Shown here piece by piece: positions 1 to 16,902 of a stretch of 64,000 nucleotides of DNA. The first letter of the stretch is position 1. Each line of letters starts with the position of its first letter. Made by a program: the position numbers and the translations under genes. The stretch comes from Flavobacterium palustre. Its GTDB lineage: Bacteria; Bacteroidota; Bacteroidia; Flavobacteriales; Flavobacteriaceae. The notes beneath the pieces were generated by a model, which was not told the origin of the DNA, ran no database searches, and saw only the letters and a program-made list of their open reading frames with translations. The stretch is from positions 124,001 to 188,000 of the forward strand of contig NZ_BMGA01000003.1 of assembly GCF_014639535.1 (NCBI RefSeq), written 5' to 3'.

Positions 1-1311
1 AGGATCATTTGGATAATCTACTTCATTACCAATACTCCATGCAAAAACAGAAAGGTGATTTCGATCACGACGTACAAAATCTTCTAAATCTTTTTCAGCC
101 CAATCAGCAAAAATATCAAACGAACCTTCAAATCCAGGTGTTCCCTGATTCCATCCTTCTAACCATTTGCGTTTTGGGAATTCCCATTCGTCATAAGCTT
201 CGTTTAAAACCAATAAACCTAACTCATCACAAAGTTCATAGAAATCAGGAGCTTGTGGATTATGACTCGTACGCACTGCATTTACACCAATTTCTTTTAA
301 AGTTTTCAATCTTGCTTCCCAAACTTCACGAGGAACAGCCGAACCTAATACTCCCGCATCATGATGTAAACAAACTCCTTTTATTTTCATCCATTTGCCA
401 TTTAAAGCAAATCCTTTATTAGCATCGAATGTAAAATTGCGAAAACCTGTTTGAGTTGTAGAATGATCGATAACTTTCCCGTCCTGCAATACAGTCGTTT
501 TCAAACTGTACAAATTAGGATTTTCCAAATCCCATATTTTAGGATTATTTACATTAATTTTTGTTGCAATTTTACCCGATTGATTAGCTGCAATCGCTAC
601 AGCATTAGTACTCTTAGCAACTGTTTTTCCATCATTTGCAATTAATTCGTTAACAACAGTCAAATTTGCTTTGGCAATAGAACCATTTTCAACAGCTACT
701 TCAACATTTAAAGTTCCTTTGTTTTTACTCACTTCCGGATATGCATAAACGCCCCATTGCTCAATATGAACCGGATTAGCATATACTACCCAAACATCTC
801 TGTAAATTCCTGAACCAGTGTACCAGCGAGAATCGGCACTTTTGCTGTGATCTACACGAACTGAAATCGTATTTTCAGCTCCGTATTTAACGTATGGAGT
901 AGCATCATAAGCAAAAGAGATATAACCATTTGGACGTTTTCCTAAAGAATGTCCGTTGATAAAAACTTCACTTCTATTATAAACTCCTTCAAAATACAAA
1001 TATACTTTTTGACCTTTTTTTGCCGAAGGTACATCCATCGTTTTTCTGTACCAGGCAATTCCTCCCGGTAAAAATCCTGTAGCACTGGCTAAAGTAGGAC
1101 TCAATTGTCCTTTAATACTCCAGTCATGAGGAAGCGAAACAGATTGCCATTTGCTATCATCATAATTTGCTTTTTGGAAATCCTGATTATCCTGTAGAAT
1201 AAACTTCCATTGATTGTTGATTTTTTGGGAATCTCCAAATGCAATCTGACTAAAAACAGATGCGTAAGAAAGCATAAGAAATGCCAGTGCGATTTTTTTT
1301 GTTGTTAACAT
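1..1311 (-). CDS. GH2 beta-galactosidase-like enzyme (N-terminal 437 residues, cut by window edge)
   Basis: This is the N-terminal part of an exported glycoside hydrolase family 2 enzyme; the gene runs off the left edge. Reading from the ATG at 1309-1311 gives a signal peptide (MLTTKKIALAFLMLSYASVFS), a jelly-roll sugar-binding domain (motifs LPHDWSIKGQLSP, GIYRDVWVVYANPVHI), an Ig-like domain and the start of the TIM barrel (GVNAVRTSHNPQAPDFYELCDE). The predicted acid/base glutamate in WSIGNEVDYPNDP is about residue 430, just before the edge; the nucleophile is outside the window. It is a close paralogue of the GH2 at 6214-8634, with long near-identical stretches at DNA level. It lies downstream of a GH30 gene, as its paralogue does, but has its own conserved promoter block at 1381-1443. 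Role inferred: periplasmic trimming of beta-linked galactose or a related sugar from imported oligosaccharides. Confidence 0.88.
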   Translation of the reverse strand, partial: MLTTKKIALAFLMLSYASVFSQIAFGDSQKINNQWKFILQDNQDFQKANYDDSKWQSVSLPHDWSIKGQLSPTLASATGFLPGGIAWYRKTMDVPSAKKGQKVYLYFEGVYNRSEVFINGHSLGKRPNGYISFAYDATPYVKYGAENTISVRVDHSKSADSRWYTGSGIYRDVWVVYANPVHIEQWGVYAYPEVSKNKGTLNVEVAVENGSIAKANLTVVNELIANDGKTVAKSTNAVAIAANQSGKIATKINVNNPKIWDLENPNLYSLKTTVLQDGKVIDHSTTQTGFRNFTFDANKGFALNGKWMKIKGVCLHHDAGVLGSAVPREVWEARLKTLKEIGVNAVRTSHNPQAPDFYELCDELGLLVLNEAYDEWEFPKRKWLEGWNQGTPGFEGSFDIFADWAEKDLEDFVRRDRNHLSVFAWSIGNEVDYPNDP

Positions 1312-1380
1312 AATTCTATTTTTTTTATAAATAAGCAGCTACTCTACCATTGAAAAGTTCTATATGGACAAGTCGAAAAA

Positions 1381-1443
1381 GCAAAGAAATGATTAAATAA
1401 CTATAAGTAAGAGGGGTAAATTCGCAAATAATGAGGATATATT
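1381..1443 (-). promoter_or_regulatory. Conserved PUL promoter/operator block, copy 2
   Basis: This block matches 16698-16761 without gaps over its first 54 bases; I count 40 identities. Islands at identical offsets are GCAAAGAAATG, AAATA, TAAG, GGGG, TTCG and AATGA (plus-strand reading), with TATATT beyond them shifted by one. On the transcribed strand it ends in CATTTCTTTGC, whose TTTCTTTG is one mismatch from the TAnnTTTG -7 element. It lies about 70 bp before the GH2 start at 1311. The likely role is binding of the HTCS at 16976-21037, which is inference. Confidence 0.6.
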
Positions 1444-1484
1444 CGTCAAAAGTTCTTTTTTTTATCCATCATTCAATAAAAAAC

Positions 1485-3113
1485 TTATTTATAACTACCT
1501 ACATAAGTAACTACAGCTTTTGAAGGAATTTCAAAACTACTTGCTTTTACATTAGTTCCTTTTTTTAAACTCATTGTTTCAGAAGTAGTGTAAGGAGTCA
1601 ATGTTTTTTTCACCAATGTGTTTCCGGAAAGATTTAAATTACACGTTTTTATTGAATTGCTATTATTAATTGCCACAATGACTAATTTTTTATTAGCGAC
1701 ATCTTTATAGGCAGTCAACATTATGTCTTCTTCCTTTTTTTGATTTTCAATTTGCAAACGAATCATTCCGGGACGTACAAAGCGAGAATAATTACCAAAC
1801 GCCCATAATAATTTTGATTCACGGTAAAAGCCATCATTTTTACAATAGCCGTCAGTCATACTTCCGTTGTTAGTGCCATCGTCCAAATAAATCAAGCCAT
1901 CTTTAAAATTAGCTCTGCTCAGAGCCGTCCACCATTGCCATGAAGAAGCATTGGCCACAGCAATATCATTATGAATAATAGTTGCTGCAAAAAGTGCTGT
2001 TTTCATTCCAAGATCCCTTTGATGACCGGAACTACCTGGAATTACTTCTTTATCTAATTGTTCCAGAATACTATATTCTGTTTGCCAATATTTTAAATTT
2101 TCAGTTTGTTTTAAACGTGAACTTAACTTTTCACGATAACTAATTTGATCCTTTAGAGGCCAAACCGAGAAATAACTGTGGCCTGTAATTACCTTTTTCA
2201 CATTAGGCAATTGTGAAATATTGGTTGAAGAAGGACCAAAAAAAGCATTTATTTGATCGTCTCTATTTTCATCATTTACATTTTCATACAAATAATTAAT
2301 TATAGCTGCTTCACCCATTACAATCTCGGTTTTTAGCGATTTTGATTGTATTCGTTCTGATAAAAGCTTCGTAAAATCAAACATTTCCTGATTTGTTGCC
2401 GGTGTTCCTTCCTGACTGGCCTGCCCGTTTTTTCCCGCCATCCAATCCCATTGTGGCTCGTTTATTGGACTTAAATAATCAAAAGTAATTCCTTCCCTGC
2501 GCTGTAAATTATCGATAGTTTCTACCAAAAAGTCTGCATACTCAGGAAGCTTTCCTTTTTTGATGTTCATATTTAATTTCTGTGGAGAAAAAGCTTTTCC
2601 GTTTAAGGTCATTTGTACGGGCGGACTAATGGTGAAAGCCAGAAATTTTTCTACACCACGACTTTTAGCTGCCTGTAAAAACCATCTTTGACCCGCTTGC
2701 TTTGTCCAATCATAAGTTCCGTCAGGATTTTGAAAACATTCGCTTCGACGCCACTCATCAGAAATTTCACTTTCCAATCCTTGTTCGGCACTTCCTGCAC
2801 CTAAGTAAAACCTCCAGACAGACAAGCCTATTCCTTTTGGATTTCCATCTTTATCCACTTCTTTAGTAAAAAGTAAATCGGCAATTGCATTTCTTTTTTC
2901 TAATGGCCAATTTTTACCAACCATCTGACATCGCCAGGCATCTGATGCTCCAAAACCATCCATAGTTTGTAACTCCTTACTTAAATCAATTTTAATTTCA
3001 CTACTATTCGAAGATATTAGTGCTGATTTCACATTCATTTTTGATGAACAGGATACCATTAATAACAAAACTGGAAAAAAATATTTTATTGGAATTGCTT
3101 TTAATATTCTCAT
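1485..3113 (-). CDS. GH30 family glycosidase lipoprotein (copy 2)
   Basis: This is a 542-residue glycoside hydrolase of the GH30 clan-A fold. The signal peptide ends in a lipobox (LLMVSC, lipid Cys22), so it is anchored in a membrane, probably the outer one. The barrel begins at QTMDGFGASDAW (about residue 49). The predicted acid/base is Glu219 in SPINEPQWDW and the nucleophile Glu346 in WQTEYSIL. A C-terminal beta-sandwich ends in SKAVVTYVGSYK. It is a paralogue of the GH30 at 8751-10391; both keep the catalytic pair and motifs GNPKGIGLS.WRF and AGSAEQG. The family contains endo-beta-1,6-galactanases, beta-1,6-glucanases, xylanases and glucosylceramidases. With GH2 neighbours, beta-1,6-galactan is my best guess, but the subfamily cannot be settled by eye. 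Confidence 0.87.
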   Translation of the reverse strand: MRILKAIPIKYFFPVLLLMVSCSSKMNVKSALISSNSSEIKIDLSKELQTMDGFGASDAWRCQMVGKNWPLEKRNAIADLLFTKEVDKDGNPKGIGLSVWRFYLGAGSAEQGLESEISDEWRRSECFQNPDGTYDWTKQAGQRWFLQAAKSRGVEKFLAFTISPPVQMTLNGKAFSPQKLNMNIKKGKLPEYADFLVETIDNLQRREGITFDYLSPINEPQWDWMAGKNGQASQEGTPATNQEMFDFTKLLSERIQSKSLKTEIVMGEAAIINYLYENVNDENRDDQINAFFGPSSTNISQLPNVKKVITGHSYFSVWPLKDQISYREKLSSRLKQTENLKYWQTEYSILEQLDKEVIPGSSGHQRDLGMKTALFAATIIHNDIAVANASSWQWWTALSRANFKDGLIYLDDGTNNGSMTDGYCKNDGFYRESKLLWAFGNYSRFVRPGMIRLQIENQKKEEDIMLTAYKDVANKKLVIVAINNSNSIKTCNLNLSGNTLVKKTLTPYTTSETMSLKKGTNVKASSFEIPSKAVVTYVGSYK

Positions 3114-3156
3114 AATTAATACTTGTTCTTTTTTTCAAAATCATCAATAGTAATTG

Positions 3157-3200
3157 TAAAAAAACCTATTCACACAATCAAATTACAGTGAATAGGTTTT
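3157..3200 (-). terminator. Hairpin terminator after the 939-residue GH2 gene
   Basis: A perfect 13-bp stem (AAAACCTATTCAC at 3161-3173 with GTGAATAGGTTTT at 3188-3200) is followed on the minus strand by a run of T. It sits between the GH2 stop (3223) and the next GH30 start (3113). It may end transcription or act as an intercistronic stabiliser. Confidence 0.75.
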
Positions 3201-3222
3201 CTCAATAAGTTTAGCATTTAAT

Positions 3223-6042
3223 TTAATAAATACTTGTAGCTCCCTCCTTGCCTTTTTCTTCCTGCTCTTTCAAAATGGATTTTAAGATTTCAGGATTCTT
3301 AATCTCTTCCGGATTAAATGATGGACTATTCATATAATTTAATACCGAAATCAACATTTGTTTCGCAACGGGACGTTTATCTAAATCCGTGCTTAAATCA
3401 AAAGAAGCAATTACTAGTTTTCCAGATCCTACACTTCCTTCGAAAAGCGAAGCCAGTTTGCGGTTATTAGCAAAATTATCTACCATTTCTACAATAGGAT
3501 TTCCTCCCACAACACTATCCATAATAAGCGTTGTTGAGTTTACGTTCAAATCCCACCATTGCCAGTCGGTATTCATATCTGTCGGGAAATTAGCCAAAGC
3601 CTTATGCGAGGGATTGCACAGTACTCCCATAGTTCCTGCCTGTTTAGGAAAATGAACCGGACTCCAAAATACAGGAACAAATTTTCCTTCGATTCCTTTT
3701 ATCTTTTTCCAATCCGGATTTAATAATACTTTTTTACCGGCGTTTAGCAATTTGTATGCTTCTTCCAGGTTTCTGGTATAGACTACTTTTCCGTAATCAA
3801 TAGTTTGTTTTTGAGGATAAACCCAAATATTCCATTGGTTTTTATAATTTGTTCCTTTGAGATTTACTTTGATTGTTAATTGGGATGCCTTTGTAATTTT
3901 CTGAAGACTTTCGTTTACGTCCAGAATTTTATGATTGTATCCTACTCCAATTGTTGCTTTAGTACTTCCTGAAGCTATTACAACATCAGCATCGCTGATA
4001 CTCCATTCAATTTCCTGATTTTTTAAATCGCTTTCAGCATAATTACTCACATCTAAAGAAGCGGTAAAAGATTCATCATTAGTATAAGTTGCTTTAGCAA
4101 AACGCATAAGCGGTACAACCGGAGCTGAAAATTCTCTAAACTCTTCTGTCGAAATCAATCCTTTACTATCCCAAAAAGCATCTAGTAAGCCCACTAAAGC
4201 CGTTCCCTGTCCCGGAAAATCATGCAGATCAAGTAATTGAAAACCACTGATTCCTGCTGTTTTTAACGCTCTTTCTATTTCTTCTTTATAAAGTATGACA
4301 GCTAATTTCCCTGAAGCTTTAGTATAATCAGCAGCTTTATTAATTAGGCCTTTTCGCTCTAAATCTTCTTTAACCGATTTAAAATTAATAGGATCTAAAA
4401 CCCCTGTATATTTAGAAATTTCATCAATTTTAGGATAAACAGCATACTGTCCTATTTCATGTGTAACTAATGGAACCGTCATTCCTTCAACAGAAGCTAC
4501 ATAATCTTTGTTGAATGTTGGAGATTCACTGTTAAAAACACCTTGTCCTCTAACCCATCCTTGCTTAGTCCATTGTGTAATAAAGAAATCATCATCAGAT
4601 TCAGGCCATTTTCCATGTCCATTTTCGAAAGTAAAAGAAGTTGTAGTATATAAATGTCGGTCATCTTTTGCTTTCAGACTGTTCATCAATTTGGTCAAAA
4701 TAGTCATATCACCTTGCAATTCATTCCCCATCGACCACATACAAAAAGAAGGATGATTTCCGTATTCATTAATCATTCGTTGTGCTTCGGCATATAAAAA
4801 ATCTGTTGTTTTTGGATCTTCTCCTATTTTTAGCGTCCAAACCGGTAATTCAACCTGAAGGTAAAAACCCATTTCGTCTGCCACTTCAAAGGCCGCTTTA
4901 GGCGGACACCAAGAGTGAAAACGTAAATGATTTAATCCCCAGTTTTTAGCTGTACCAAATACTTTTTTCCAACCTTCTTTGTCCATTGGCGCATGCCCGG
5001 TAAGTGGAAAAATATCACATTCTAATGTTCCTCTTAAAAATACAGGCTGACCGTTAATAGTTAGAACCGATCCTTTTTTAGAAAAACTGCGCATTCCAAA
5101 ATCTACAGCAACTTGCGATTGACTCTTTCCGGCTTTTAATTCGGCTTTTAATTCGTATAACTCCGGCGAAAATTCATTCCACAGTTTTACGTCTTTCCCC
5201 ATATCATAATCAATGGCAACAACAGTTTGTCCTGTATTAATTTGGATATCTTTTTGAAGTGCCTCAACAGCAATTTTACTTTTTTTATTTACGGCAGTAA
5301 TAGTTACAACTCCTTTTACTGTTTTTTTAGTATTGCTGTTAAAAGTGAATTCTAACTTGGCTTTTCTTGTATTGATGTCTGGTTTCACTTGTAAATTAGC
5401 AATTCGAACAGCATCAAAAGCTTCGATTTCCATTTTTCCAATAACACCATTCCAAATAATTTGCGTATGATTAGTATAAGCATGCGCCATATTATCTACA
5501 CTAATATCAAATAATTTACGGTTATCAACACGAATGGTTATCCGATGTGTTTTTCCAGCTGTAAGGTATTTGGTAAGATCATAATAATGCGGTGCAATCA
5601 GGCTGTTTTGTTCTGTTCCCAATTCTTTACCATCAATCCAAACATTTGTTTTCCAAATGACACGTTCTAATTTTAAAATCAGTTCTTTTGCTTTCCAATT
5701 TTTCGGAACTGTAATTTCACGTGTGTACCAAGCAGCACCCAAATAACTGTTTTTTCGGGTTAAATGGGTCATTTGTAGTTTTTCTAAACTTGGTTTTAAT
5801 TTGTTAGGCACTCCAAGACCAGCATCATCCGTAGTTCCCGGCAATTTGATTAACTGCTTAAAACTCATATTCTGCCAGCCGTTTTTCAGTCCAATATCAG
5901 TACTGTCCAGCGCAACAGTCCAATCGCCGGCAATATTGATTATACTCTTTTCTCCGGAACTCCATGAAGTGAGAAAGAACAACAGAAAAACTGATGTAAT
6001 TATAGATCTGATTTGTATTCTTCTATTTTTCATTATTAACAT
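3223..6042 (-). CDS. Large GH2 family glycoside hydrolase (939 aa)
   Basis: This is an exported GH2-type enzyme that is distant from the two close GH2 paralogues of the locus. After an N-terminal signal segment (hydrophobic core about 13-26) come a sugar-binding jelly roll (WYTREITVPKNW, about 105-116), Ig-like strands and a TIM barrel (GLNHLRFHSWCPP, about 369-381). The predicted acid/base is Glu441 in WSMGNELQGD and a likely nucleophile is Glu529 in VTHEIGQY. About 350 further residues form C-terminal domains without recognisable motifs. A second in-frame ATG at 6031-6033 (MKNRRIQIRS) gives a more usual signal peptide and may be the true start. Specificity could be beta-galactosidase, beta-glucuronidase or another GH2 activity; the sequence does not decide it. 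Confidence 0.8.
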   Translation of the reverse strand: MLIMKNRRIQIRSIITSVFLLFFLTSWSSGEKSIINIAGDWTVALDSTDIGLKNGWQNMSFKQLIKLPGTTDDAGLGVPNKLKPSLEKLQMTHLTRKNSYLGAAWYTREITVPKNWKAKELILKLERVIWKTNVWIDGKELGTEQNSLIAPHYYDLTKYLTAGKTHRITIRVDNRKLFDISVDNMAHAYTNHTQIIWNGVIGKMEIEAFDAVRIANLQVKPDINTRKAKLEFTFNSNTKKTVKGVVTITAVNKKSKIAVEALQKDIQINTGQTVVAIDYDMGKDVKLWNEFSPELYELKAELKAGKSQSQVAVDFGMRSFSKKGSVLTINGQPVFLRGTLECDIFPLTGHAPMDKEGWKKVFGTAKNWGLNHLRFHSWCPPKAAFEVADEMGFYLQVELPVWTLKIGEDPKTTDFLYAEAQRMINEYGNHPSFCMWSMGNELQGDMTILTKLMNSLKAKDDRHLYTTTSFTFENGHGKWPESDDDFFITQWTKQGWVRGQGVFNSESPTFNKDYVASVEGMTVPLVTHEIGQYAVYPKIDEISKYTGVLDPINFKSVKEDLERKGLINKAADYTKASGKLAVILYKEEIERALKTAGISGFQLLDLHDFPGQGTALVGLLDAFWDSKGLISTEEFREFSAPVVPLMRFAKATYTNDESFTASLDVSNYAESDLKNQEIEWSISDADVVIASGSTKATIGVGYNHKILDVNESLQKITKASQLTIKVNLKGTNYKNQWNIWVYPQKQTIDYGKVVYTRNLEEAYKLLNAGKKVLLNPDWKKIKGIEGKFVPVFWSPVHFPKQAGTMGVLCNPSHKALANFPTDMNTDWQWWDLNVNSTTLIMDSVVGGNPIVEMVDNFANNRKLASLFEGSVGSGKLVIASFDLSTDLDKRPVAKQMLISVLNYMNSPSFNPEEIKNPEILKSILKEQEEKGKEGATSIY

Positions 6043-6148
6043 TCTTTTTGAGTATTAGATAATTTTGAAATAAACGAACTTTTTTAAAAAAGCATTGCTT
6101 ATTATTGGTATTTATTCCTTTAGTTATTTAGCACGCATCTCACTATAT

Positions 6149-6190
6149 AAAAAATCTACCTGTCTGTAAACCACAAACAGACAGGTAGAT
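6149..6190 (-). terminator. Hairpin terminator after the 806-residue GH2 gene
   Basis: A perfect 14-bp stem (ATCTACCTGTCTGT at 6154-6167 with its complement at 6177-6190) is followed by six T on the minus strand. It lies just past the stop of the GH2 gene at 6214 and is the strongest hairpin inside the PUL. Confidence 0.8.
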
Positions 6191-6213
6191 TGAGAAACTA
6201 ACCTAACTAACAC

Positions 6214-8634
6214 TTATTTTACATTGATAGTAACTTCAACCGGTTTCAACCATTGGCTTGTAAAAGTCACTTTTATAGGTTGTGCCTCTCCGGTAGTCTG
6301 AATATAGGCAGCAATCTGACCATGAAATGCTCTGTGTACATTATCAGTATAATCAGTCATATCACTGTTATTTCCAGCTTCAAGTCCTAATAAAACTCCA
6401 GGTCCGCTAATAGTACATGTAACTTCATTATCTGAAAGCATTACCGGTAATCCGTTTTGATCTTTTAACTGAACCATAATTTTAGCCACTCCTTTATCTT
6501 TAGCAATCGTAATGTTTTTATCAGCAATTGTTAATTCAACGGGTTGTTCAGTAGATTTAATCGCATATCGGCTTACTTCTTTGTTGTCATTACTTAAACC
6601 AATTGCTTCTAATTTCCCGGAAGCAAATGGAATATCCCAGTAAATAATTCCCGTTTTTTCATCGTAAGCTTTAGTATCACCTACAACTTTTCCGTTTAAT
6701 TCTAATCGTGCTTTAGCAGCATTGGTATAACAAACCACACGAATCTTTTCACCAGAAGTGTAATTCCAAATTGCCCAGGCATCTTTAGAAACTTCTTTTT
6801 GGTCTTTTAATGGATAAGTTCCAATGTAAGTCATTGGTTTATCAGACCACAATGACTGACGGAAATAACCTCTTGGCTTAATAACTCCTGCAAAATCAAC
6901 TAATCCTGAATAAAATCCTCTTGAAGGCCAACTTCCAGATTCTCCTAAATAATCAATTCCAGTCCATAAAAACTGTCCAAAAATATGTTTGTTGTTCTTA
7001 ACAGCTAACCAAGGATCCATATCGTGCACATTTTCGCTACCAAAAATGACTCTTTTTGGATATTTTTGATGATCCGAAAGGTATTTACTTTCGGTATAAT
7101 TATACCCTGTAATATCTAAAGCTCCCGGATATTCGGTTTCGTTAGACATGGCAACTCCAGCTAATCCAGCTGTTGTTGGGCGAGATTTATCGTATTTCTT
7201 AACCACTGCCACCAAACGTTTTGCAATTGCGCCTAAACGCATCGCATCTGGTGCGTCTTTTTTGTAACCACCGTAAGCTGCCTGTCCAAATCCGTCTTTT
7301 CCTTTATCCAAAACGGGATGAGAATACGGATCATTAGGATAATCTACTTCGTTACCAATACTCCATCCAAAAACGGATAAATGATTTCTGTCACGACGAA
7401 CAAAATCTTCTAAATCTTTCTCTGCCCAGTCTGCAAAAATGTCAAAACTTCCCTGAAATTCCGGAGTACCTACATTCCATCCTGTCATCCACTTACGTTT
7501 TGGGAATTCCCATTCATCATAAGCTTCGTTTAAAACTAATAATCCTAATTCATCACACAATTCATAAAAATCAGGTGCCTGTGGATTATGACTGGTACGT
7601 ATTGCATTTACACCTATTTCTTTCAATGTTTTTAATCTGGATTCCCAAACTTCACGAGGAACTGCTGAACCTAAAACACCGGCATCATGATGCAAACAAA
7701 CGCCTTTCATTTTCATCCATTTATCATTTAATGCAAAACCATTATTAGCATCGAATGTAAATTTTCTAAAACCTGTTTTTGTAACTGTCTGGTCTATTTC
7801 CTTACCATCTTGAAAAACAGTTGTTTTCAATTGGTATAAATTTGGATTTTCTAAATCCCATAATTTTGGATTTTTAACTTGTAATTTGGTTGTGATTTTA
7901 CCGTTTGCATTGGCTACAACCTCAACCTTATTGGAAGTTTTTGCAACAGATTTTCCCTCTTTCGAAATCAATTCATTAACTACTGTAAGAGTAGATTTTG
8001 ATGCAGCAGCATTTTCAACCTCAACTTCAACATTTAAAGTTCCTGTTCCTTTTTTCACTTCCGGATACGCATAAACGCCCCATTGTGCAATATGCACCGG
8101 ATTAGCATACACTACCCAAACATCTCTGTAAATCCCAGAACCCGAATACCATCTTGAATCGGCACTTTGACTGTGATCCACACGAACAGCAATTGTATTT
8201 TCTGCTCCAAATTTCACAAACGCAGTAGCATCATAAGCAAAAGAGATATAACCATTTGGTCGTTTTCCTAAAGAATGTCCGTTAATAAAAACTTCACTTC
8301 TGTTGTAAACACCTTCAAAATACAAATACACTTTTTCGCTGCTTTTACTTTTCGGAATAGTGATTGATTTTCTATACCAGGCAATTCCGCCGGGAAGATA
8401 ACCTGTACAACTAGCCAATGTAGGGCTTAATTGCCCTTTAACACTCCAGTCATGCGGCACATTTACAGTTTGCCATTTACTATCGTCAAATGCTGCGTTT
8501 TTAGCATCTGATACATCCTGAAGATTGAATTTCCAGTTATCATTAATTTTTTTCGAATCCCCAAATGACAGCTGACTGAAAGCAGAACAACACGAGAAGA
8601 AAAAAACAGCTGCTAAGATTTTTTTTGTAAACAC
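6214..8634 (-). CDS. GH2 beta-galactosidase-like enzyme (806 aa, GTG start)
   Basis: This is a complete exported GH2 glycosidase. The start codon is GTG (8632-8634), placed by alignment with the ATG of its paralogue at 1311. Order: signal peptide (1-20), jelly-roll sugar-binding domain (about 28-180), Ig-like domain (about 190-290), TIM barrel (about 295-600), then a DUF4982-like segment and a C-terminal Ig-like domain (about 700-806). The acid/base is Glu429 in GWSIGNEVDYPNDP and the nucleophile Glu534 in IFGSENVHDMD. It follows the GH30 gene at 8751-10391. Expected action is removal of terminal beta-galactosyl (or similar) residues in the periplasm from oligosaccharides imported by SusCD. 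The family call is firm; the exact sugar is not. Confidence 0.9.
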   Translation of the reverse strand: MFTKKILAAVFFFSCCSAFSQLSFGDSKKINDNWKFNLQDVSDAKNAAFDDSKWQTVNVPHDWSVKGQLSPTLASCTGYLPGGIAWYRKSITIPKSKSSEKVYLYFEGVYNRSEVFINGHSLGKRPNGYISFAYDATAFVKFGAENTIAVRVDHSQSADSRWYSGSGIYRDVWVVYANPVHIAQWGVYAYPEVKKGTGTLNVEVEVENAAASKSTLTVVNELISKEGKSVAKTSNKVEVVANANGKITTKLQVKNPKLWDLENPNLYQLKTTVFQDGKEIDQTVTKTGFRKFTFDANNGFALNDKWMKMKGVCLHHDAGVLGSAVPREVWESRLKTLKEIGVNAIRTSHNPQAPDFYELCDELGLLVLNEAYDEWEFPKRKWMTGWNVGTPEFQGSFDIFADWAEKDLEDFVRRDRNHLSVFGWSIGNEVDYPNDPYSHPVLDKGKDGFGQAAYGGYKKDAPDAMRLGAIAKRLVAVVKKYDKSRPTTAGLAGVAMSNETEYPGALDITGYNYTESKYLSDHQKYPKRVIFGSENVHDMDPWLAVKNNKHIFGQFLWTGIDYLGESGSWPSRGFYSGLVDFAGVIKPRGYFRQSLWSDKPMTYIGTYPLKDQKEVSKDAWAIWNYTSGEKIRVVCYTNAAKARLELNGKVVGDTKAYDEKTGIIYWDIPFASGKLEAIGLSNDNKEVSRYAIKSTEQPVELTIADKNITIAKDKGVAKIMVQLKDQNGLPVMLSDNEVTCTISGPGVLLGLEAGNNSDMTDYTDNVHRAFHGQIAAYIQTTGEAQPIKVTFTSQWLKPVEVTINVK

Positions 8635-8669
8635 TATTTCTATTTTTTATTTATTATCAATGAAAATAA

Positions 8670-8697
8670 GAGTTCGCTGTTTTTACACAGCGAACTC
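8670..8697 (-). terminator. Hairpin between GH30 and GH2 genes
   Basis: A 10-bp perfect stem GAGTTCGCTG/CAGCGAACTC is followed on the minus strand by TTATTTTC, a poor T-run. It lies 36 bp before the GH2 GTG start, so it may modulate rather than end transcription. Confidence 0.5.
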
Positions 8698-8707
8698 CTA
8701 TTACTAA

Positions 8708-8730
8708 AATGAGAAATATTCATTCTCATT
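8708..8730 (-). terminator. Second short hairpin after the GH30 stop
   Basis: An 8-bp stem AATGAGAA/TTCTCATT lies 21 bp after the GH30 stop codon. It is followed by TTTAG only, so a stabilising or attenuating role is as likely as termination. Confidence 0.4.
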
Positions 8731-8750
8731 TTTAAATTTTATTAAATTCT

Positions 8751-10391
8751 TTAGTTATAAGTTCCTACATAAGTCACAATAGACTTAGCCGGAATATCAA
8801 AACCAGAAGCATCAACAGCTGCTCCTTTTTTCAAACTCATTGTTTCAGAAGTAATATAAGGTGTGAATTTATTATCTACTAAAGTACCACCAGCCAGATT
8901 TAATTTGTATGTTTTTGCCGAACCAGAAACATTAACCGCTACAATAATTAGTTTTTTAGCTACTTCATCTTTATATGCTGTTAGCATCACATTAGTAGTG
9001 GCAGCAGCATTATCAAAATTAGGTATTTGAACTCTTTTCATACCCGGCTTTATAAAGAAAGAGAAGTTTCCTAAAGCCCAAAGAATTTTAGTTTCTCTAA
9101 TATTACCATCGTACTTACAATAATTAGCATCACCTGCACCATTTGATAATCCGTCATCAACATGAAGTAAACCATCTTTGTAATCTCCGCGGCTAATAGC
9201 CGTCCACCACTGCCATGAAGTAACTCCTCCAACAGCAATATCAGTGCTTATAATACGGGCAACCCAAAGTGCAGTTCTAATTCCTAAATCTCTGCCAGGA
9301 CCAGCTCCTCCCGGAAGTTCAGATGTTCCCGGATTTTCAAGAATACAATATTCAGATGCCCAAACACTCAGTCCCGGAACTGTAGCTGCTCTGGATGCAA
9401 CAGCTTGTCTTGATGAAACTAATTCTCTCAATGGCCAGGCTTGCCAATAACTATGTCCGGAAATTGTTTTCTTTACATTACTTAATCCGGCTATATTTTT
9501 AGTCGAATTAACCCCAAAGAAATAATCAATCTGATTCGAACGATTTTCTTTTCCGCTCAACGTTTTATACAATGGTTCGAAAGAACCTGCCTCACCTACA
9601 ACAATTTGCGAATTCAATCCTTTTGCCTGTAATTTTGGAGCCAGTGTATTTACAAAACTGTAAATATTAGCATTAGAAGCCGGAGAACCTTCCTGTCCGG
9701 AACCATCCCATTCGTATTGTGGTTCGTTAAACGGACTTAAATAGTCAATTGTTAAGTCATGTTCTGTCTTCAATTTATCAATAGCATTAACCCAAAAATC
9801 AGCTAATTCAGGCATTTTGCCATCTTTCAAATTATAAAAAGTATTAATACTAGCGTGTGCTTTTCCGTTTTGAGTCAAATAAACAGGAGCACTATTGGTA
9901 AAAGCCAATAACTTATCTACACCACGTTGTTTAGCCGCTTTCATAAACCAAACCTGACCCGCTTGTTTATTCATGTTATAACTTACACCATCAGCAGTAA
10001 AACACTCACTGCGTCTCCATTCATCGGTAATACCACTTGCTTCACCTTGTTCAGCACTTCCTGCTCCAAGGTTAAAACGCCATAATGACAAACCAATTCC
10101 TTTAGGATTTCCTTCGTTGTCTAATTCTTTACTGAACAACAAATCAGCCATTTTATTTTTTTTATCAATAGGCCAGTTTTTTCCAATATTATTAGACTGC
10201 CAGGCATCAGAAGCTCCAAAACTTTCCATTGTTTGAAGGTTCATGTCTAAGTTAACGTTTAAATCAGTAATAGCTGAATCCTCAGAACCTGAGCTATCAT
10301 TGTTATCCGACTCACAACTCACTAAAGAAGAGTTGATGAAAAGTAAGCCTACAAATAGCAGACCTACTCTATATTTTCTTAATATATTCAT
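8751..10391 (-). CDS. GH30 family glycosidase lipoprotein (copy 1)
   Basis: This 546-residue GH30 enzyme has a lipoprotein signal (SSLVSC, lipid Cys26) followed by an acidic Ser/Asn/Asp-rich linker (about 27-40), as expected for a surface-displayed enzyme. The barrel starts at QTMESFGASDAW. The predicted acid/base is Glu223 in SPFNEPQYEW and the nucleophile Glu347 in VWASEYCIL. The C-terminal beta domain ends in SIVTYVGTYN. Only one base separates its start from the SusD stop, so it is cotranscribed and probably translationally coupled with SusCD. A likely job is endo-cleavage of the polysaccharide at the cell surface before uptake. Beta-1,6-galactanase is a reasonable guess, not shown. Confidence 0.88.
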   Translation of the reverse strand: MNILRKYRVGLLFVGLLFINSSLVSCESDNNDSSGSEDSAITDLNVNLDMNLQTMESFGASDAWQSNNIGKNWPIDKKNKMADLLFSKELDNEGNPKGIGLSLWRFNLGAGSAEQGEASGITDEWRRSECFTADGVSYNMNKQAGQVWFMKAAKQRGVDKLLAFTNSAPVYLTQNGKAHASINTFYNLKDGKMPELADFWVNAIDKLKTEHDLTIDYLSPFNEPQYEWDGSGQEGSPASNANIYSFVNTLAPKLQAKGLNSQIVVGEAGSFEPLYKTLSGKENRSNQIDYFFGVNSTKNIAGLSNVKKTISGHSYWQAWPLRELVSSRQAVASRAATVPGLSVWASEYCILENPGTSELPGGAGPGRDLGIRTALWVARIISTDIAVGGVTSWQWWTAISRGDYKDGLLHVDDGLSNGAGDANYCKYDGNIRETKILWALGNFSFFIKPGMKRVQIPNFDNAAATTNVMLTAYKDEVAKKLIIVAVNVSGSAKTYKLNLAGGTLVDNKFTPYITSETMSLKKGAAVDASGFDIPAKSIVTYVGTYN

Positions 10392-10392
10392 T

Positions 10393-12000
10393 TTAATAAT
10401 TTGGGTTTTGAGTAATTACACCATCACTTAAGTCTCTTTCTAACTGAGGTATTGGCCAAAGTAAATGCTTAGTAGGATCAAAATTAATTCCTTTGTCCTG
10501 AGATTCTCTTGTATTAGTTGTTTCAAAAGGATCACTCGAATTCAAATTGTACTGCACAAAAGTCCCGTTAGGTCCCATCAAAGTTTCAATTACTTTTTTA
10601 CCTGTTCCCGGATCCTTTTGTCTTCTGATATCAAACAATCTCAATCCTTCAAAGGCTAATTCTAAACGGCGTTCTTTATAGATTTTTCTTAAAAGATTAG
10701 GTCCGGCCATTCCTTCTACTATAGGTAAATCTACACGTTCTCTAATTACATTAATATCGTCCATCGCTCCAGAAGCATCATTCAAATGATAATTAGCTTC
10801 AGCTCTTGTAAGGTACATTTCGGCCAAACGAATTAATGGAATATTCAATGGTAAGTGACCGTCTTTTTTATCTAATGCTCTACGGGTTGCGATAGGAATG
10901 TAATATTTACGACAAATACGTCCTGATTTATTATCATTCAAACTGAATTTATGAGTTGGATTCAAAACTTCGTCTCCATAAGCCGCTTCACCCCATTTAG
11001 TAATAGTACTTCTGCGACGAATTACATCACCTTCTGAAATATAAGCGTTTTCTAAATCACTTGTTGGCATACACCATCCCCATCCGTCAATAACATCTCT
11101 GGTATCTTTACTTGGAAAGTTTTCTTTGTCTTCTCCTCTTGCTCCGGAGAAAGTAGGAAGAGCAGCTCCTAAATTTCTGTCTTGTACTGATGAAGACTGT
11201 GCTTCTAAAATTGACTCAATTCCGTTATGGTTATCTACACTCCAAATATCTAAGAAATTTTCTTCCAATTGGAAAGGTCCTTCTGCAATTACTTTAGTGG
11301 CATATAATTTGGCATCTGACCATTTTTCCTGAAACAAAGACACACGTGCTAATAAAGCATAAGCTGCCCATTTATTGATTCGACCATCTCTTGCTGCAGG
11401 AATATTTTCTAATTTTTCTGCCGATTCTTTTAAGTCAGCTTCTATTTGTGCATATACCTCAGCTGCTGAACTACGAGCTAAAGTCAAATCACCTGTACCA
11501 AGTGATTTAGTGTACAATGGAACACCTCCAAAAAGATTTACCAATTCATAATAACAATAAGCGCGAACAAACAAAGATTCTCCCATATACTGATTTTTTT
11601 GAGCATCAGTAATTGGCGCTACAGCCATTCTTTCTAAACCAATATTAGCTGATTGAATAGTATAATAGTGTGCTGTATAGATACTATTCATAGCTCCCAT
11701 ATTTTCAGGAGTTACCACGTATTGTGCACAAGGTCTGAAAGCACCATTATCCTGTCCTGTATTTCCCATCCAGGCATCATCGGTTGCGGTTTCGTTAATT
11801 AATCTTGGTGCAAGCAAAGTGTACCAATCTTTAGCCAACAATAATCGCTGGGTTAATTCATTGGTATAATTTTCACATTCCTGTGCTGTTTGAAAATAAT
11901 TCTCCAAAGTTTGAGTTCCTCTTGCTTCTTTTTCGATAAAATCGCTACAAGAAACTGCAACAGCAGCAAAAGTTAGTATTGATACTAGTATTTTTTTCAT
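10393..12000 (-). CDS. SusD/RagB family glycan-binding lipoprotein
   Basis: This is the 535-residue surface lid of the SusCD import complex. The signal peptide ends in AVAVSC with lipid Cys18, and the mature start SDFIEKEARGTQTLENYF is typical. Helical TPR-like SusD segments include the family pattern IRLAEMYLTRAEANY (about 385-400) and RLELAFEGLRLFDIRR. It ends DLSDGVITQNPNY, the usual QNPGY-like SusD tail. It follows SusC by 12 bp and precedes GH30 by 1 bp. It should bind oligosaccharide and pass it to SusC. Confidence 0.96.
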   Translation of the reverse strand: MKKILVSILTFAAVAVSCSDFIEKEARGTQTLENYFQTAQECENYTNELTQRLLLAKDWYTLLAPRLINETATDDAWMGNTGQDNGAFRPCAQYVVTPENMGAMNSIYTAHYYTIQSANIGLERMAVAPITDAQKNQYMGESLFVRAYCYYELVNLFGGVPLYTKSLGTGDLTLARSSAAEVYAQIEADLKESAEKLENIPAARDGRINKWAAYALLARVSLFQEKWSDAKLYATKVIAEGPFQLEENFLDIWSVDNHNGIESILEAQSSSVQDRNLGAALPTFSGARGEDKENFPSKDTRDVIDGWGWCMPTSDLENAYISEGDVIRRRSTITKWGEAAYGDEVLNPTHKFSLNDNKSGRICRKYYIPIATRRALDKKDGHLPLNIPLIRLAEMYLTRAEANYHLNDASGAMDDINVIRERVDLPIVEGMAGPNLLRKIYKERRLELAFEGLRLFDIRRQKDPGTGKKVIETLMGPNGTFVQYNLNSSDPFETTNTRESQDKGINFDPTKHLLWPIPQLERDLSDGVITQNPNY

Positions 12001-12012
12001 ATTCGTTTATTA

Positions 12013-15000
12013 TTAAAATGCTACATTAAGCCCCATTAGAATTGTTGGTTGTACCGGATAATTCCAGCCTCCAAAACCTGATCCTAAAACACTTCCGCCT
12101 ACCTCAGGATCTACACCTGTATATTTTGTCCATGTCCATAAATTTTGACCTGACAATGAGATTCTCAGTTTATCCAATCCAAATTTATTGTAAAGAGAAT
12201 ATCCTAACTGAAGGTTTTTCATACGTACAAAAGAACCATCTTCAACATAGAATGAAGAGAATTTTGTAAAATTCTCATTATTATCATCTCTTGATAAACG
12301 AGGGATATAATTAGAAGTTCCCTCTCCATGCCAAGCCTTTTGATCTAATCCACTTACTTTGTTTGTTAAACTGGTACCGTTGTATAAGTCTGAAATATTA
12401 GTATTTACTAAATCATTACCAATACTTGAATAGAAATTAGCCACTAAATCGAAATTTTTGTAAGCAAAATTCAAATTCAAACCAACATTATAATCAGCCC
12501 AAGGAGAACCAATTTTTGTTCGGTCTTTATCATCCAGTTTTCCATCTCCGTTAACATCTTTGAAACGGATATCCCCAAGTTGAGCATATGGTTGTAATTT
12601 AGTTCCGTGATCATCAGTATGTGAATTCAATTGGGTTTGATTTTGAAATAAACCATCTGCTACATAACCGTAAAAATAACCTGGTTCATTACCTTCAACT
12701 GTAATGGTTCTGTTACTTGCTCCATATAATTTTTCTCCTTTTGTAGATAATGATAACATCTCTACATCCACAGTAGTAAAAGTTAAATCTACACCATAAG
12801 AAAAATCGCCTTTAGTATCTTTATATGACAATAATAAATCGATACCGCTGGATTGCATTGAACCTACATTAGTCCAAATGGTAGAATATCCCGGAAAACC
12901 ACTGTATGTAGGGAATTGTTTAAGGAACAACATATCGTTAGTTTTCTTTTGATAATATTCCAATGATCCTGAAATTTTATTTTGGAACAATCCAAAATCA
13001 AGTCCAAAACTAATATCCTCTACTGTTTCCCAACGAATGTCTCTGTTAGCCATCGTTGAAGGATATGAAGTATCTACAACCTGACCATCGATAACATAGT
13101 ATCCCTGACCAATATTAGATTGATAAACCGAAGCAGGTAAATTTTGATTTCCTACTTTACCCCAACCTGCTCTGAAAGTTAAATTATTAAATACCGAATT
13201 AGCATTCGTCATGAAATCTTCATTCGAAATTCTCCAGGAAACAGAAGCAGCAGGGAAATTAGCCCATTTGTTATTAGCCATAAATTTAGAAGAACCATCA
13301 CGTCTAAATGAAGCTGTCAAATAATACTTACTGTCAAAATTATATGAGAAACGCGAAATATATGACAATAAAGAATTAGACCATCTGTTTCCGCCACTGT
13401 TACGGTTTTTGGTTGCTGCATTCAGCTCTCTCATAGAATCAGAGTTGTTAGGAACTCCTTCTCCATAACCCCATACATCATTTCCGTTGTATTCCTCCAT
13501 AGTACTACCTACCATTAAAGAGGTATTGTGTTTCTCAGCAAATGCTCTGGAATAAGTTGCAGTTGTCTGCCATGTCCAGTCAGCGTTAGTAGTAGCTTTT
13601 CTTTCAATACTGTTAATTTCAGCTTTTTCGTGAGCTGCATCAATAACAAAATCAGGTCTAAAGATACTTTGCACTCTATTACCAACTTCAATAGATCCTT
13701 GTGTACGGATTATTAATCCTTTAATAGGTTCGTATTGTAAATAACCGTTTGTATTCAAGTTGTATTGATCTGTATTATCGTCAAATCTTTTTACTGATGC
13801 TACAGGATTCCAAACATACGAAGGAGATCGTGCATAGATACTATACTCATTTTCAGTTCCGTTTAATTGATCTGCAGGTTTGTAGATTGGTGTAATTGGA
13901 TCAATCTTAACAAAATCAGCCCAGTTTCCCGGTGATCCCCAAGTTTCATAACGAGGATTTAAAGTAATTCCTGCCGAAAACTTATCCGTAAATTTAAAAT
14001 CATTAGCAATTCTGGCAGTAACTCTTTCCCATCCTCCAACATCATAAAATGAATCTGAATTGTAATAGTTCAAACTTATTGCATAAGTATTTTTTTCTGA
14101 ACCTCCTGTTACTCCAATAGAAGTATTTGTTACTGATGATGCTCTATTAATTCCTGCTTTCCACCAATCGGTAGTTTTTCCTCTGTATTGTTCCGGATTA
14201 GGTAAATAATCCGAATAACCCGAATTAGTATAGGCATCATTCATGATAGTAGCATAATTTTCAGCATTAGCCATATCATACGGTTTATTCATAATTTGGT
14301 AACCTGTACTCATGTCAACAGTAAACTTAGTTTTACCGGCTTTACCTTTTTTAGTAGTAATCAAAATAACCCCGTTAGATGCACGAGAACCATAAATTGC
14401 ACTTGCCGAAGCGTCTTTAAGTACATCCATCGATTCGATTTCGTTATTACTCAGGAAATTGATGCTGGTTCCCATAGGAATACCATCTACCACATAAAGC
14501 GGATCAGTACTTAAATTTACAGTAGAAATTCCGCGAATCAATACTCTGGGCTGAGCACCCGGACCACCAGCTCCGGTAATTTGTACCCCGGATACTTTTC
14601 CTTGTAATGATTCCGTCACGTTTCCTACTGTCATAGTTTGAAGCTCTTTACCTTTTACGGATGAAATCGAACTGGTAACATCTTTCTTTTTTACAGTAGC
14701 ATACCCTACAACAACCACTTCTTCTAATGACTGATTGTCTTCGAGCAATACAATGTCAAATGATGTTTTTTGATCTACTTTAATTGTTTGTGTAGCAAAA
14801 CCAATAAAAGAAAACTCAATTTGTGCTTCCTTATTTGGAACTACAATGGCAAATTTCCCATCAAAATCAGTAGCAACTGAAGTTTGAGTTCCTTTTACAA
14901 AAACATTCACACCCGGAATAGGAACAGCAGTTTTGTCTTTGACAGTACCTTTTACTGTAATTTGTGCAAAGGCTGCCGAGCTACATAAAATAGCAATAAG

Positions 15001-15024
15001 TAAGCCTATAAATTTATATTTCAT
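12013..15024 (-). CDS. SusC/RagA TonB-dependent outer-membrane transporter
   Basis: This 1003-residue TonB-dependent transporter forms the pore of the SusCD pair. Order: signal peptide (1-20), CarboxypepD_reg-like domain (about 22-95), a TonB-box-like EEVVVVGYAT (101-110), plug (about 115-225, with VLIRGISTVNLSTDPLYVVDG and IYGSRASNGVILITTKKGK), then a 22-strand barrel ending in the usual terminal Phe (GLNVAF). Length is normal for SusC. It lies 43 bp after the SusE/F-like gene and 12 bp before SusD. It is expected to import oligosaccharides using proton-motive force. Confidence 0.97.
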   Translation of the reverse strand: MKYKFIGLLIAILCSSAAFAQITVKGTVKDKTAVPIPGVNVFVKGTQTSVATDFDGKFAIVVPNKEAQIEFSFIGFATQTIKVDQKTSFDIVLLEDNQSLEEVVVVGYATVKKKDVTSSISSVKGKELQTMTVGNVTESLQGKVSGVQITGAGGPGAQPRVLIRGISTVNLSTDPLYVVDGIPMGTSINFLSNNEIESMDVLKDASASAIYGSRASNGVILITTKKGKAGKTKFTVDMSTGYQIMNKPYDMANAENYATIMNDAYTNSGYSDYLPNPEQYRGKTTDWWKAGINRASSVTNTSIGVTGGSEKNTYAISLNYYNSDSFYDVGGWERVTARIANDFKFTDKFSAGITLNPRYETWGSPGNWADFVKIDPITPIYKPADQLNGTENEYSIYARSPSYVWNPVASVKRFDDNTDQYNLNTNGYLQYEPIKGLIIRTQGSIEVGNRVQSIFRPDFVIDAAHEKAEINSIERKATTNADWTWQTTATYSRAFAEKHNTSLMVGSTMEEYNGNDVWGYGEGVPNNSDSMRELNAATKNRNSGGNRWSNSLLSYISRFSYNFDSKYYLTASFRRDGSSKFMANNKWANFPAASVSWRISNEDFMTNANSVFNNLTFRAGWGKVGNQNLPASVYQSNIGQGYYVIDGQVVDTSYPSTMANRDIRWETVEDISFGLDFGLFQNKISGSLEYYQKKTNDMLFLKQFPTYSGFPGYSTIWTNVGSMQSSGIDLLLSYKDTKGDFSYGVDLTFTTVDVEMLSLSTKGEKLYGASNRTITVEGNEPGYFYGYVADGLFQNQTQLNSHTDDHGTKLQPYAQLGDIRFKDVNGDGKLDDKDRTKIGSPWADYNVGLNLNFAYKNFDLVANFYSSIGNDLVNTNISDLYNGTSLTNKVSGLDQKAWHGEGTSNYIPRLSRDDNNENFTKFSSFYVEDGSFVRMKNLQLGYSLYNKFGLDKLRISLSGQNLWTWTKYTGVDPEVGGSVLGSGFGGWNYPVQPTILMGLNVAF

Positions 15025-15067
15025 ATCAAGATAATTTATTAATTAATGTTATATCAGCTATAACAAA

Positions 15068-16465
15068 CTATTTTTTAGTGATAAATGCTCTTTCTAATTC
15101 TGTATCCAAAATCACTTTATAAACACCCGGAGCAGCAGGATATTTAGCATTTCCGTTTGAACCCGGTGACATGGTAGCAATACCATTTTTTATTAATCTC
15201 CAGGATGGACTCCACCATTGACCTGTAAAAGTTCCTTCCATTGTACCTGTAAGTGTATATTCACCTACTAACTGATATGGATTATTAGGATTATTAGCTA
15301 AGTGTAAACTGGTTTGAACCCAGGCATTCCATGTGTCCCAGTTAGCTCCTTGAATTCCTCCACCGGCAATACTTACAAATGGTCTTCTTTGCGTTTCATC
15401 ATCATGCCATAAACCGTTTGCTATATCAGCCCAAACTTTAGATGTTGGAGTATATTTAGTTACTGTATAAACTAATGTACTTGGATTAACTTTTATTTTA
15501 TAGTATCCTTTTGTAGGCAATACAATCGGTGAAGATGTTACGTCATCAACCAAATTTCCTGAACCATTTAAACCAAAGCAATGTGGAGCAAAATCAGATT
15601 CCTGTCCTAAGAAATAAATTTCTTTATTATCTGTATCTGCATAATATTTGAATTCAAAATCCTGCCCTACTTTTTCATGGAAATACATAGGTACACCTAC
15701 CGCATCAGTAGTTAAATTTGTTCCTTTAGGCTGATCACATAAATAGATTGCAGGATATTCATTGGTAGCCACAATATTAATATTTAGTGTTCCCATATTT
15801 GGAATCGCAAATTTATCTTTTGCAGTAATGGTTAACACATATTGTGCGGCTGTTACCGGTAAAGTATAAGCTTTATTAAAGGTGTACGACTGAGGAGATC
15901 CTGTTAACTGAACCATTTCATCGATTCCTAATGCTGCACATTTAACTTCTACATAATCAATTCCTGAATCGTCATTAACAACAAAATTTACCGGTAATTG
16001 ATTGCTGGAAGACAACAAAATTACAGCACCTTCTTTAGGCGTAATCATACTAATTGCCGGAGCACTAAACTCCCCATCCAAACGTAAATCAATCTCCTGA
16101 TCAATTTCATTACCGGAAACATCAGTAATTGTTAATTTAATTTTAAAAGCCTCAGATGTTCCTCTGTCAGCAGGAACTTCAAAAAAATAACTTAGGTCAT
16201 AGGTTGTTAAAAGAGGCTCTGTTGGAAAATTAATTATTTTGTCTAAGCTCAATTCTTCAATTTGAATTCTTACACTCTTAAGTCCTAAATCATCATTCAA
16301 AGTAGCTTTGATTTCAAACTTTCGGTTTGGAGCACCATAAATTTCATTAGTAGATACCACAACCGTTGGATTATCCGAAGAAGGAAAATCGGCTTCATCA
16401 TTTTGACATCCTGTAAAAAGAATGGTAAAAAATGTAAGCAAAAATAAAAACGAGAGTTTTTTCAT
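15068..16465 (-). CDS. SusE/SusF-like surface glycan-binding lipoprotein
   Basis: This 465-residue lipoprotein (ILFTGC, lipid Cys20) starts the SusCD operon. Its N-terminal two-thirds look like consecutive Ig-like domains (repeated patterns such as DDLGLKSVRIQIEE and DDSGIDYVEVKCA). The C-terminal third is Trp/Gly-rich (GLWHDDETQRRPF, GANWDTWNAWV, GQWWSPSWRLI) and ends PGVYKVILDTELERAFITKK, as in SusE/SusF-type proteins whose last domain binds glycan through aromatic residues. A surface glycan-binding protein as the first gene, before SusC, is uncommon; it usually follows SusD. The assignment rests on pattern and context. Confidence 0.75.
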   Translation of the reverse strand: MKKLSFLFLLTFFTILFTGCQNDEADFPSSDNPTVVVSTNEIYGAPNRKFEIKATLNDDLGLKSVRIQIEELSLDKIINFPTEPLLTTYDLSYFFEVPADRGTSEAFKIKLTITDVSGNEIDQEIDLRLDGEFSAPAISMITPKEGAVILLSSSNQLPVNFVVNDDSGIDYVEVKCAALGIDEMVQLTGSPQSYTFNKAYTLPVTAAQYVLTITAKDKFAIPNMGTLNINIVATNEYPAIYLCDQPKGTNLTTDAVGVPMYFHEKVGQDFEFKYYADTDNKEIYFLGQESDFAPHCFGLNGSGNLVDDVTSSPIVLPTKGYYKIKVNPSTLVYTVTKYTPTSKVWADIANGLWHDDETQRRPFVSIAGGGIQGANWDTWNAWVQTSLHLANNPNNPYQLVGEYTLTGTMEGTFTGQWWSPSWRLIKNGIATMSPGSNGNAKYPAAPGVYKVILDTELERAFITKK

Positions 16466-16697
16466 ATCATTGATTTTAATTTTAGTTGTTGCTTATGTAA
16501 TTCTCTAAACAACTTTTGATTTTAATAGTAGTTCTAATTTTTATAGCAATTCATCATTTTATTGAGTTCCTATACTTTTCATAAGCTTTAATTTTAGTTA
16601 GTTTGGTTAATAAATTGGTGTGTAATCATTTTTGCTTTATTTATGATAATTTAACTTAAAATAAATTTCAAGTCAGAAATAATAAACTAGCATCCTA

Positions 16698-16761
16698 GCA
16701 AAGAAATGGTGAAATAGCATTAAGCATAGGGGGGATTTTCGAAAAAAATGAAGGGTATATT
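16698..16761 (-). promoter_or_regulatory. Conserved PUL promoter/operator block, copy 1
   Basis: This is the partner of 1381-1443, with 40 identities in 54 ungapped positions. On the transcribed strand it contains two TCATT-like half sites about 42 bp apart (TCATTTTTTTC and CCATTTCTTTGC; in copy 2 TCATTATTTGC and TCATTTCTTTGC), a C-run and a near-consensus -7 element TTTCTTTG. AraC-type HTCS regulators often bind direct repeats upstream of the promoter, so this is the best candidate operator. Confidence 0.62.
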
Positions 16762-16869
16762 GGAAAACAATAAGGACAAAACATTCAAAAAAGACAATTC
16801 AACAAAAAAATCTGACTTTATTTGATTTCTAGATAAATTATACATTATATAATTCACATATCAACAAAA

Positions 16870-16902
16870 AATCCTAACCTTATTATTAATAAGATTAGGA
16901 TT
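16870..16902 (-). terminator. HTCS terminator, possibly bidirectional
   Basis: A 16-bp stem with one mismatch (AATCCTAACCTTATTA against TAATAAGATTAGGATT) has T-runs on both sides. It lies about 75 bp past the HTCS stop and separates the regulator from the SusE/F operon promoter. Confidence 0.7.

Follow-up and report, generated by a model that had tools for sequence, protein, structure and literature searches.

C-rich direct repeats in fixed register with a -7-like element mark candidate HTCS-dependent promoters in a Flavobacterium polysaccharide utilization locus

Introduction

The motifs of hybrid two-component system (HTCS) regulators in Bacteroides thetaiotaomicron are described, in the text of Ravcheev et al. 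(2013, PMC3878776), as direct repeats of two conserved sites at a mean distance of 21 bp. Work on the S/CHIP motif, which the relevant section of PMC11253607 ties to the suppression of DNA binding until phosphorylation, tested the promoters of bt4114 and bt4662. On the side of the transcription machinery, the -7 box of Flavobacterium sigma-A promoters is given as TAnnTTTG, and mapping in F. psychrophilum places it at -12 to -5 (PMC9723704, promoter section). PMC12125979 tests, in its relevant part, a Vibrio XylR-type regulator and not an HTCS, and in the open-access literature that was searched we found no HTCS operator mapped in Flavobacterium. Here we analyze a polysaccharide utilization locus (PUL) of Flavobacterium palustre in which two related intergenic blocks appear very likely to be promoters dependent on the HTCS encoded beside them. 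The window, i.e., the whole stretch of DNA analyzed, comprises 64,000 nucleotides of contig NZ_BMGA01000003.1 (positions 124,001 to 188,000). All genes of the locus lie on the minus strand, in the order HTCS, block 2, SusE/F-like, SusC, SusD, GH30, GH2, GH2, GH30, block 1, and a further GH2 that is the leftmost gene of the window.

The blocks fit the published HTCS operator plan (as the text of PMC3878776 gives it), to which we add a fixed register between the repeat and the -7 element. In common with the B. thetaiotaomicron operators, they are direct repeats about 21 bp apart that lie upstream of PUL operons, with distant operons possible in the regulon; unlike them, they have C-rich half-sites and a Flavobacterium host, in a comparison based on the text description. 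They share with the SusR-like operators of the same source the regulation of sus genes in Bacteroidota through direct repeats, but those are spaced 67 or 77 bp apart and are read by SusR, whereas the repeat here is 21-22 bp (lags scanned, 12-55 and 13-25) and the regulator is an HTCS. The receiver of this HTCS has the sequence SHIP, which corresponds to the S/CHIP part of the inhibitory motif in PMC11253607, the comparison covering that part alone; the promoters studied in that work, as its promoter section names them, are not these operators.

Two related blocks in one locus

The initial annotation of this DNA had picked out a block of about 60 bp common to two distant sites of the PUL, and the pair is confirmed. 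In an alignment of the intergenic spacers 1312-1484 and 16466-16975, the best ungapped local match (1380-1436 versus 16697-16753) has 42 of 57 positions identical and a score of 150, which none of 1000 dinucleotide shuffles reaches (mean, 78; sd, 10; maximum, 136), in a test that carries the prior selection of these spacers by the annotation. Both copies are on the minus strand and before the genes that the annotation named, the distance from block 1 to the leftmost GH2 gene being 68 bp and that from block 2 to the SusE/F-like gene being 231 bp.

A generic repeat scattered through the genome, which the annotation had itself held up as a possibility, can be rejected for the genome of F. palustre (G000; G, C, and L are our handles for genomes, contigs, and loci). 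When 86 bases of block 1 are searched against the entire genome (E up to 10), 22 matches are returned including block 1 itself, and the only other clearly significant one is block 2 (E, 4.5e-5); the remaining matches are one partial match of 33 bases (E, 0.013) and 19 with E >0.5. The partial match, at G000:C4:185090-185121, lies inside a drawn open reading frame (L053, about 9591-9622) and was taken as chance. Likewise, just two strong matches in this genome are given by R1, a sequence-only profile of an alignment of eight orthologous sites (alignment A2).

Anatomy of the sites

The sites share a conserved direct repeat, approximately AATTTACCCCTC, with its half-sites 21-22 bp apart (22 bp in block 2 and 21 bp in block 1), at a fixed distance upstream of a -7-like CATTNCTTTGC (Table 1). 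In all eight sites of alignment A2, the CCCC core and CATTNCTTTGC are invariant and the sequence between them is free of gaps. The -7-like element of both blocks, TTTCTTTG, keeps this register and has one mismatch among the six fixed bases of the sigma-A box TAnnTTTG as given for Flavobacterium in PMC9723704, a departure that would suit an activator-dependent promoter. Because the -7 box is placed at -12 to -5, after the F. psychrophilum mapping in the same source, the half-sites are predicted at about -45 to -34 and -67 to -56. A scan for promoters of the Escherichia coli type gave nothing informative.

Table 1. Coordinates of the sites and genes in the window
Feature	Position	Strand	Evidence or remark
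HTCS gene	16976..21037	-	Pfam: Reg_prop, Y_Y_Y, HisKA, HATPase_c, Response_reg, HTH_18
Intrinsic terminator of HTCS gene, immediately before block 2	16870..16902	-	15-pair stem and T tail
Possible third half-site TGTTTTGTCCTT, 22 bp beyond upstream half-site of block 2	16772..16783	-	weak, E 0.087
Block 2, putative operator and promoter before susE/F-susC-susD operon	16695..16764	-	alignment A2; R1 match G000:C3:140697-140747
Block 2 upstream half-site AATATACCCTTC	16750..16761	-	predicted about -67 to -56; 7/12 identical to downstream half-site 22 bp off
Block 2 downstream half-site AAAATCCCCCCT	16728..16739	-	predicted about -45 to -34
Block 2 -7-like element TTTCTTTG	16699..16706	-	predicted start site near 16694
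SusE/F-like gene, first downstream of block 2	15068..16465	-	named by position, kept before SusC in orthologs
SusC-like TonB-dependent transporter	12013..15024	-	Pfam Plug and CarbopepD_reg_2
SusD-like lipoprotein	10393..12000	-	Pfam SusD_RagB
Enzyme genes GH30, GH2, GH2, GH30 of likely first transcript	1485..10391	-	Pfam
Block 1, putative operator and promoter before leftmost GH2	1378..1446	-	alignment; R1 match G000:C3:125379-125443
Block 1 upstream half-site AATATATCCTCA, weaker	1432..1443	-	9/14 matches at lag 21
Block 1 downstream half-site AATTTACCCCTC	1411..1422	-	alignment A2, lag analysis
Block 1 -7-like element TTTCTTTG	1382..1389	-	predicted start site near 1377
Leftmost GH2 gene, first downstream of block 1	1..1311, extends beyond left edge of window	-	Pfam

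The repeat was measured on 26 representatives that differ by >10 mismatches, chosen from 73 distinct site sequences, whose consensus starts with gCnAATTTgACCTcCTTTTTTTTCcAATTTACCCCTC and ends with CATTaCTTTGC. When the downstream 12-base half-site is compared with the DNA upstream of it, identity peaks at a lag of 22, with a mean of 7.1 of 12; over lags 20 to 24 the means are 5.0, 6.2, 7.1, 6.3, and 3.6, and at lags 13-19 and 25 they are 2.3-3.4. Matches of at least 7 of 12 occur at lags 21-23 in 22 of the 26 representatives and at the control lags 14-16 in none. This repeat takes the place of the TCATT-like half-sites, 42 bp apart, that the annotation had proposed. These are present in both copies, but among the representatives TCATT is found at the upstream position in 2/26 and at the downstream position in 7/26, the downstream CATT being part of the conserved -7 region, and we reject them as half-sites. 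The upstream C-rich half-site of block 2 sits at the edge of the block as first delimited. Only the near clade shows the possible third half-site, and no peak for it appears at lags 21-22 over 79 sites.

Could the two blocks simply be strong sigma-A promoters, alike by shared promoter type and devoid of an HTCS operator? The most conserved stretch does include CATTNCTTTGC, and -7 boxes are common across promoters. Conservation, however, runs about 50 bp upstream of the -7 element and takes in the invariant CCCC core, and the R1 profile, sparse as it is in the genome of F. palustre, has no match at its cut-off in the genus genomes without the HTCS (see below). We therefore consider a promoter of this kind alone to be very improbable.

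Association with the HTCS

Orthologs of the HTCS with 64-88% identity occur in five genomes besides that of F. palustre, among 60 including it, and the block is present at all five orthologous loci, before susE/F in G005, G008, G015, and G006 and before GH2 in G005 and G031. At the cut-off used throughout for R1 (E<=1e-5), the profile matches 61 of 399 genomes of the genus, and every one of these belongs to the 63 in which the HTCS is found at E<=1e-300; the 336 genomes without the HTCS at that threshold give no match. The two HTCS-positive genomes without an R1 match, G141 (HTCSs of 57% and 54% identity) and G384 (50%), still have the C-rich repeat in a weaker form. In a set of 397 genomes of the family, R1 matches three, all of them of the genus Flavobacterium and all with the HTCS; the HTCS itself is found in five, and the other two, which belong to other genera (G538, 43%; G616, 48%), lack an R1 match yet possess the looser architecture described below. 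Of a further set of 62 loci, 15 were examined, and among 14 loci of that set R1 matches seven, all from Flavobacterium with HTCSs at 64-88%.

A position-weight scan (cut-off, 22) yielded 78 rows, or 74 nonduplicate places once four repeats from overlapping loci are removed. The susE sites in the window and in G005 are left uncounted, L168 (G141) is counted although it falls short of the R1 cut-off, and the scan gave nothing at L190 (G230, an R1 match) or L169 (G141). Of these places, 53 are before susE/F and 8 are before GH2, so that 61/74 precede one or the other; 5 more are before a SusC-like gene beside the HTCS. The 8 others lie before a GH5 gene in G102, G135, G335, and G198; before SusC-like genes twice in G421, with 1.4 and 1.9 kb separating site and gene and the HTCS far away, and once in G250, at a contig end; and before a LacZ-type GH2 gene of G421, with the HTCS about 10 kb away. 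For the GH5 sites of G135, G335, and G198, no HTCS is among the matches listed within 40 kb on the same contig.

These places bear on the notion that the block is the operator of some other regulator, encoded elsewhere, with the HTCS as a mere neighbor. The link between HTCS and block might be due to inheritance of the PUL alone, and the operator assignment comes from sequence. Since whole-PUL inheritance accounts for part of the co-occurrence, the sites outside the main PUL weigh more, and those before GH5 and distant SusC-like genes (at the R1 cut-off) are found only in genomes that carry the HTCS. Moreover, the spacing is the same as that published for HTCS operators, and C-rich repeats recur next to related HTCSs, which leaves another regulator with a very small probability. 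With block and HTCS together in 61/61 genomes, the sites placed before PUL genes, and the repeat built on the published plan, the proposal of the initial annotation that the block is a candidate operator of this HTCS holds up well.

As a separate observation, the HTCS match at G335:C1:2874758-2877169 covers query residues 7-817 only and contains two TAA stops, while the susE/F operator is kept (L161); this HTCS is probably a decayed regulator.

More distant HTCS relatives

Beyond the reach of R1, we used a loose pattern, here termed the architecture. It occurs exactly once at each of 22/22 distant HTCS loci (43-57% identity; 1.4 matches expected from shuffles), which comprise 20 of the 27 at 49-57% identity, a broken one at 59% being left uncounted, and the two family-set loci. 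Applied to the window and four further loci, it finds the two blocks and one orthologous block only, with 0.78 expected. Farther out, two records, one of Flectobacillus and one named Cellulophaga sp. (HTCS at 36%, with the same site sequence), have GATTACCCCC and GATTTCCCCC, spaced by 21 bp, in the HTCS-SusC spacer. At three Chitinophagaceae loci (48-51%), TTTACCCCC-like or TTTGTCCCCC repeats with a spacing of 21-23 bp were found by eye in the same spacer. Three tandem C-rich half-sites are seen at some relatives of the HTCS (L209:6703-6765, L211:2395-2458, and L237:13890-14014).

Within the genome of F. palustre, a scan for CCC-N17-20-CCC at 10 other HTCS loci found no convincing operator of this type, on account of which these HTCSs probably use other half-sites. 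When the DNA-binding domains of its HTCSs were compared (10 loci aligned of 11 tried), the top identity, 44/103 with the next at 39/99, belonged to a paralog that has CCCC repeats in its own PUL and a similar second recognition helix. A broader proposal, to which we give even chances, is that one C-rich code of TTTACCCC-like half-sites 21-23 bp apart is read by the whole HTCS subfamily, in Flavobacterium, other Flavobacteriaceae, Chitinophagaceae, and Flectobacillus. Tuning of the flanking bases would fall to the second recognition helix (here DQKYFRQQF), and regulons might become predictable from the DNA-binding domain.

Block 1, transcripts, and rearrangement

Block 1 is a clade feature. It is found before GH2 in eight genomes (G000, G005, G031, G074, G343, G415, G365, and G097) and also in F. 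undicola and F. sufflavum. A recent duplication of a segment, without selection, might be invoked to explain why the two blocks are alike, given that the PUL has at least two GH2 and at least two GH30 genes and that block 1 is found only in genomes with a GH2 gene at that place, but the best ungapped similarity is limited to 57 bp and both block types persist in F. flevense, F. glycines, F. daejeonense, F. sufflavum, and F. undicola, which makes this account scarcely credible. Their retention in these five species further indicates that the split between block 1 and block 2 is old.

The division of the locus into two transcripts, as the annotation had it, is likely, and its two boundaries differ in their support. 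Before block 2, the 15-pair terminator of the HTCS gene was found once against 0.1 in shuffles; before block 1, none was found in the window. In the F. flevense ortholog (G005), a hairpin does precede block 1 (-12.8 kcal/mol; z, -3.7). The predicted leader upstream of susE/F is long, about 230 bases in the window (16466-16694) and about 210-510 bases in orthologs.

A metagenome contig (G031, NCET01000052.1; L042:8061-8298) has the HTCS gene joined directly to block 1 and GH2, with no SusC match above 37%. Its identity to F. flevense is about 80% on the HTCS side and jumps to 99% within the operator spacer, and the junction may have arisen by crossing over at the operators or may be an assembly fault.

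Proposed mechanism and points against it

On the basis of the observed conservation, spacing, register, and co-occurrence with the HTCS, we consider it very likely that each block is an HTCS-dependent promoter, i.e., a putative operator bound by the HTCS joined to a sigma-A promoter that it would activate. The direct repeat of about AATTTACCCCTC, at 21-22 bp, would correspond to two helical turns, and with this distance two AraC-type DNA-binding domains could share one face of the DNA. A phosphorylated HTCS dimer might thus place its two AraC-type domains on the two half-sites, with phosphorylation as the presumed control. The downstream half-site, at about -45 to -34, would adjoin RNA polymerase at the -7 element CATTtCTTTGC, as in class II activation, a contact that its position and general knowledge of AraC-type activators suggest. 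In this scheme, the HTCS would sense its oligosaccharide in the periplasm and switch on block 2, and with it susE/F-susC-susD and the GH30/GH2 enzymes, while in one Flavobacterium clade the second copy, block 1, would drive the duplicated GH2 and the genes beyond it, along the likely transcript boundaries given above.

Several observations weigh against this proposal or limit it. Concerning the promoters, no terminator is found in the window between the GH30 stop and block 1, and the stretch before block 1 folds no better than shuffles (z, -0.28); block 1 could accordingly be an internal promoter in the window genome. The -7 element departs from TAnnTTTG by its one mismatch, and the upstream half-site is weak in the GH2-type sites, being without the C-run in G343, G415, and G365, where block 1 may for that reason bind more weakly. 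Concerning the association, R1 was trained on eight sites that recur among its own matches (six of the 61 genomes), and the co-occurrence partly reflects inheritance of whole PULs. The GH5 site of G102 is about 6 kb from a second HTCS (50% identical), which makes its regulator ambiguous. As for the distant relatives, the architecture pattern was written only after the first sites had been seen, and 10 other HTCS loci of the F. palustre genome give 3 pattern matches versus 0.74 expected, which we treat as noise, none being an operator. The pattern is also absent from the HTCS-SusC spacer of the three Chitinophagaceae loci and from the surroundings of HTCSs at 30-31% (L238, Pedobacter; L243, Flavobacterium sp.), and the lead of the CCCC-repeat paralog in DNA-binding-domain identity is small.

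Genes of the locus

The HTCS protein unites a sensor propeller, Y_Y_Y, HisKA, HATPase, receiver, and AraC-type domains in a single chain, according to Pfam. The sole Pfam match of the SusE/F-like product is weak and below cut-off (DUF4625). The leftmost GH2 product has 811 aa in the joined locus and is 77% identical to the GH2 encoded at 6214-8634. The members of this pair (window 1-1311 with L039:17877-19499 versus 6214-8634) are arranged as one copy per operator, and this level of identity makes a duplication within the PUL likely. To the left of the window, the leftmost GH2 gene is followed by a melibiase-like and a GH43 gene. A BT4146-like rhamnogalacturonidase is encoded there as well (L039:9764-11332; 775 bits; cut-off, 500), in view of which the neighboring locus appears to be pectin related.

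Biological significance

The motif keeps its register across dozens of species and goes with a single HTCS subfamily, and it provides an exact target for binding tests. Separate enzyme genes belong to the regulon that it predicts, and it offers a handle on the evolution of DNA recognition by HTCSs. If a single C-rich code is indeed read across the subfamily, the regulons of unstudied PULs, including distal members such as GH5 genes, could be predictable from the DNA-binding domain alone.

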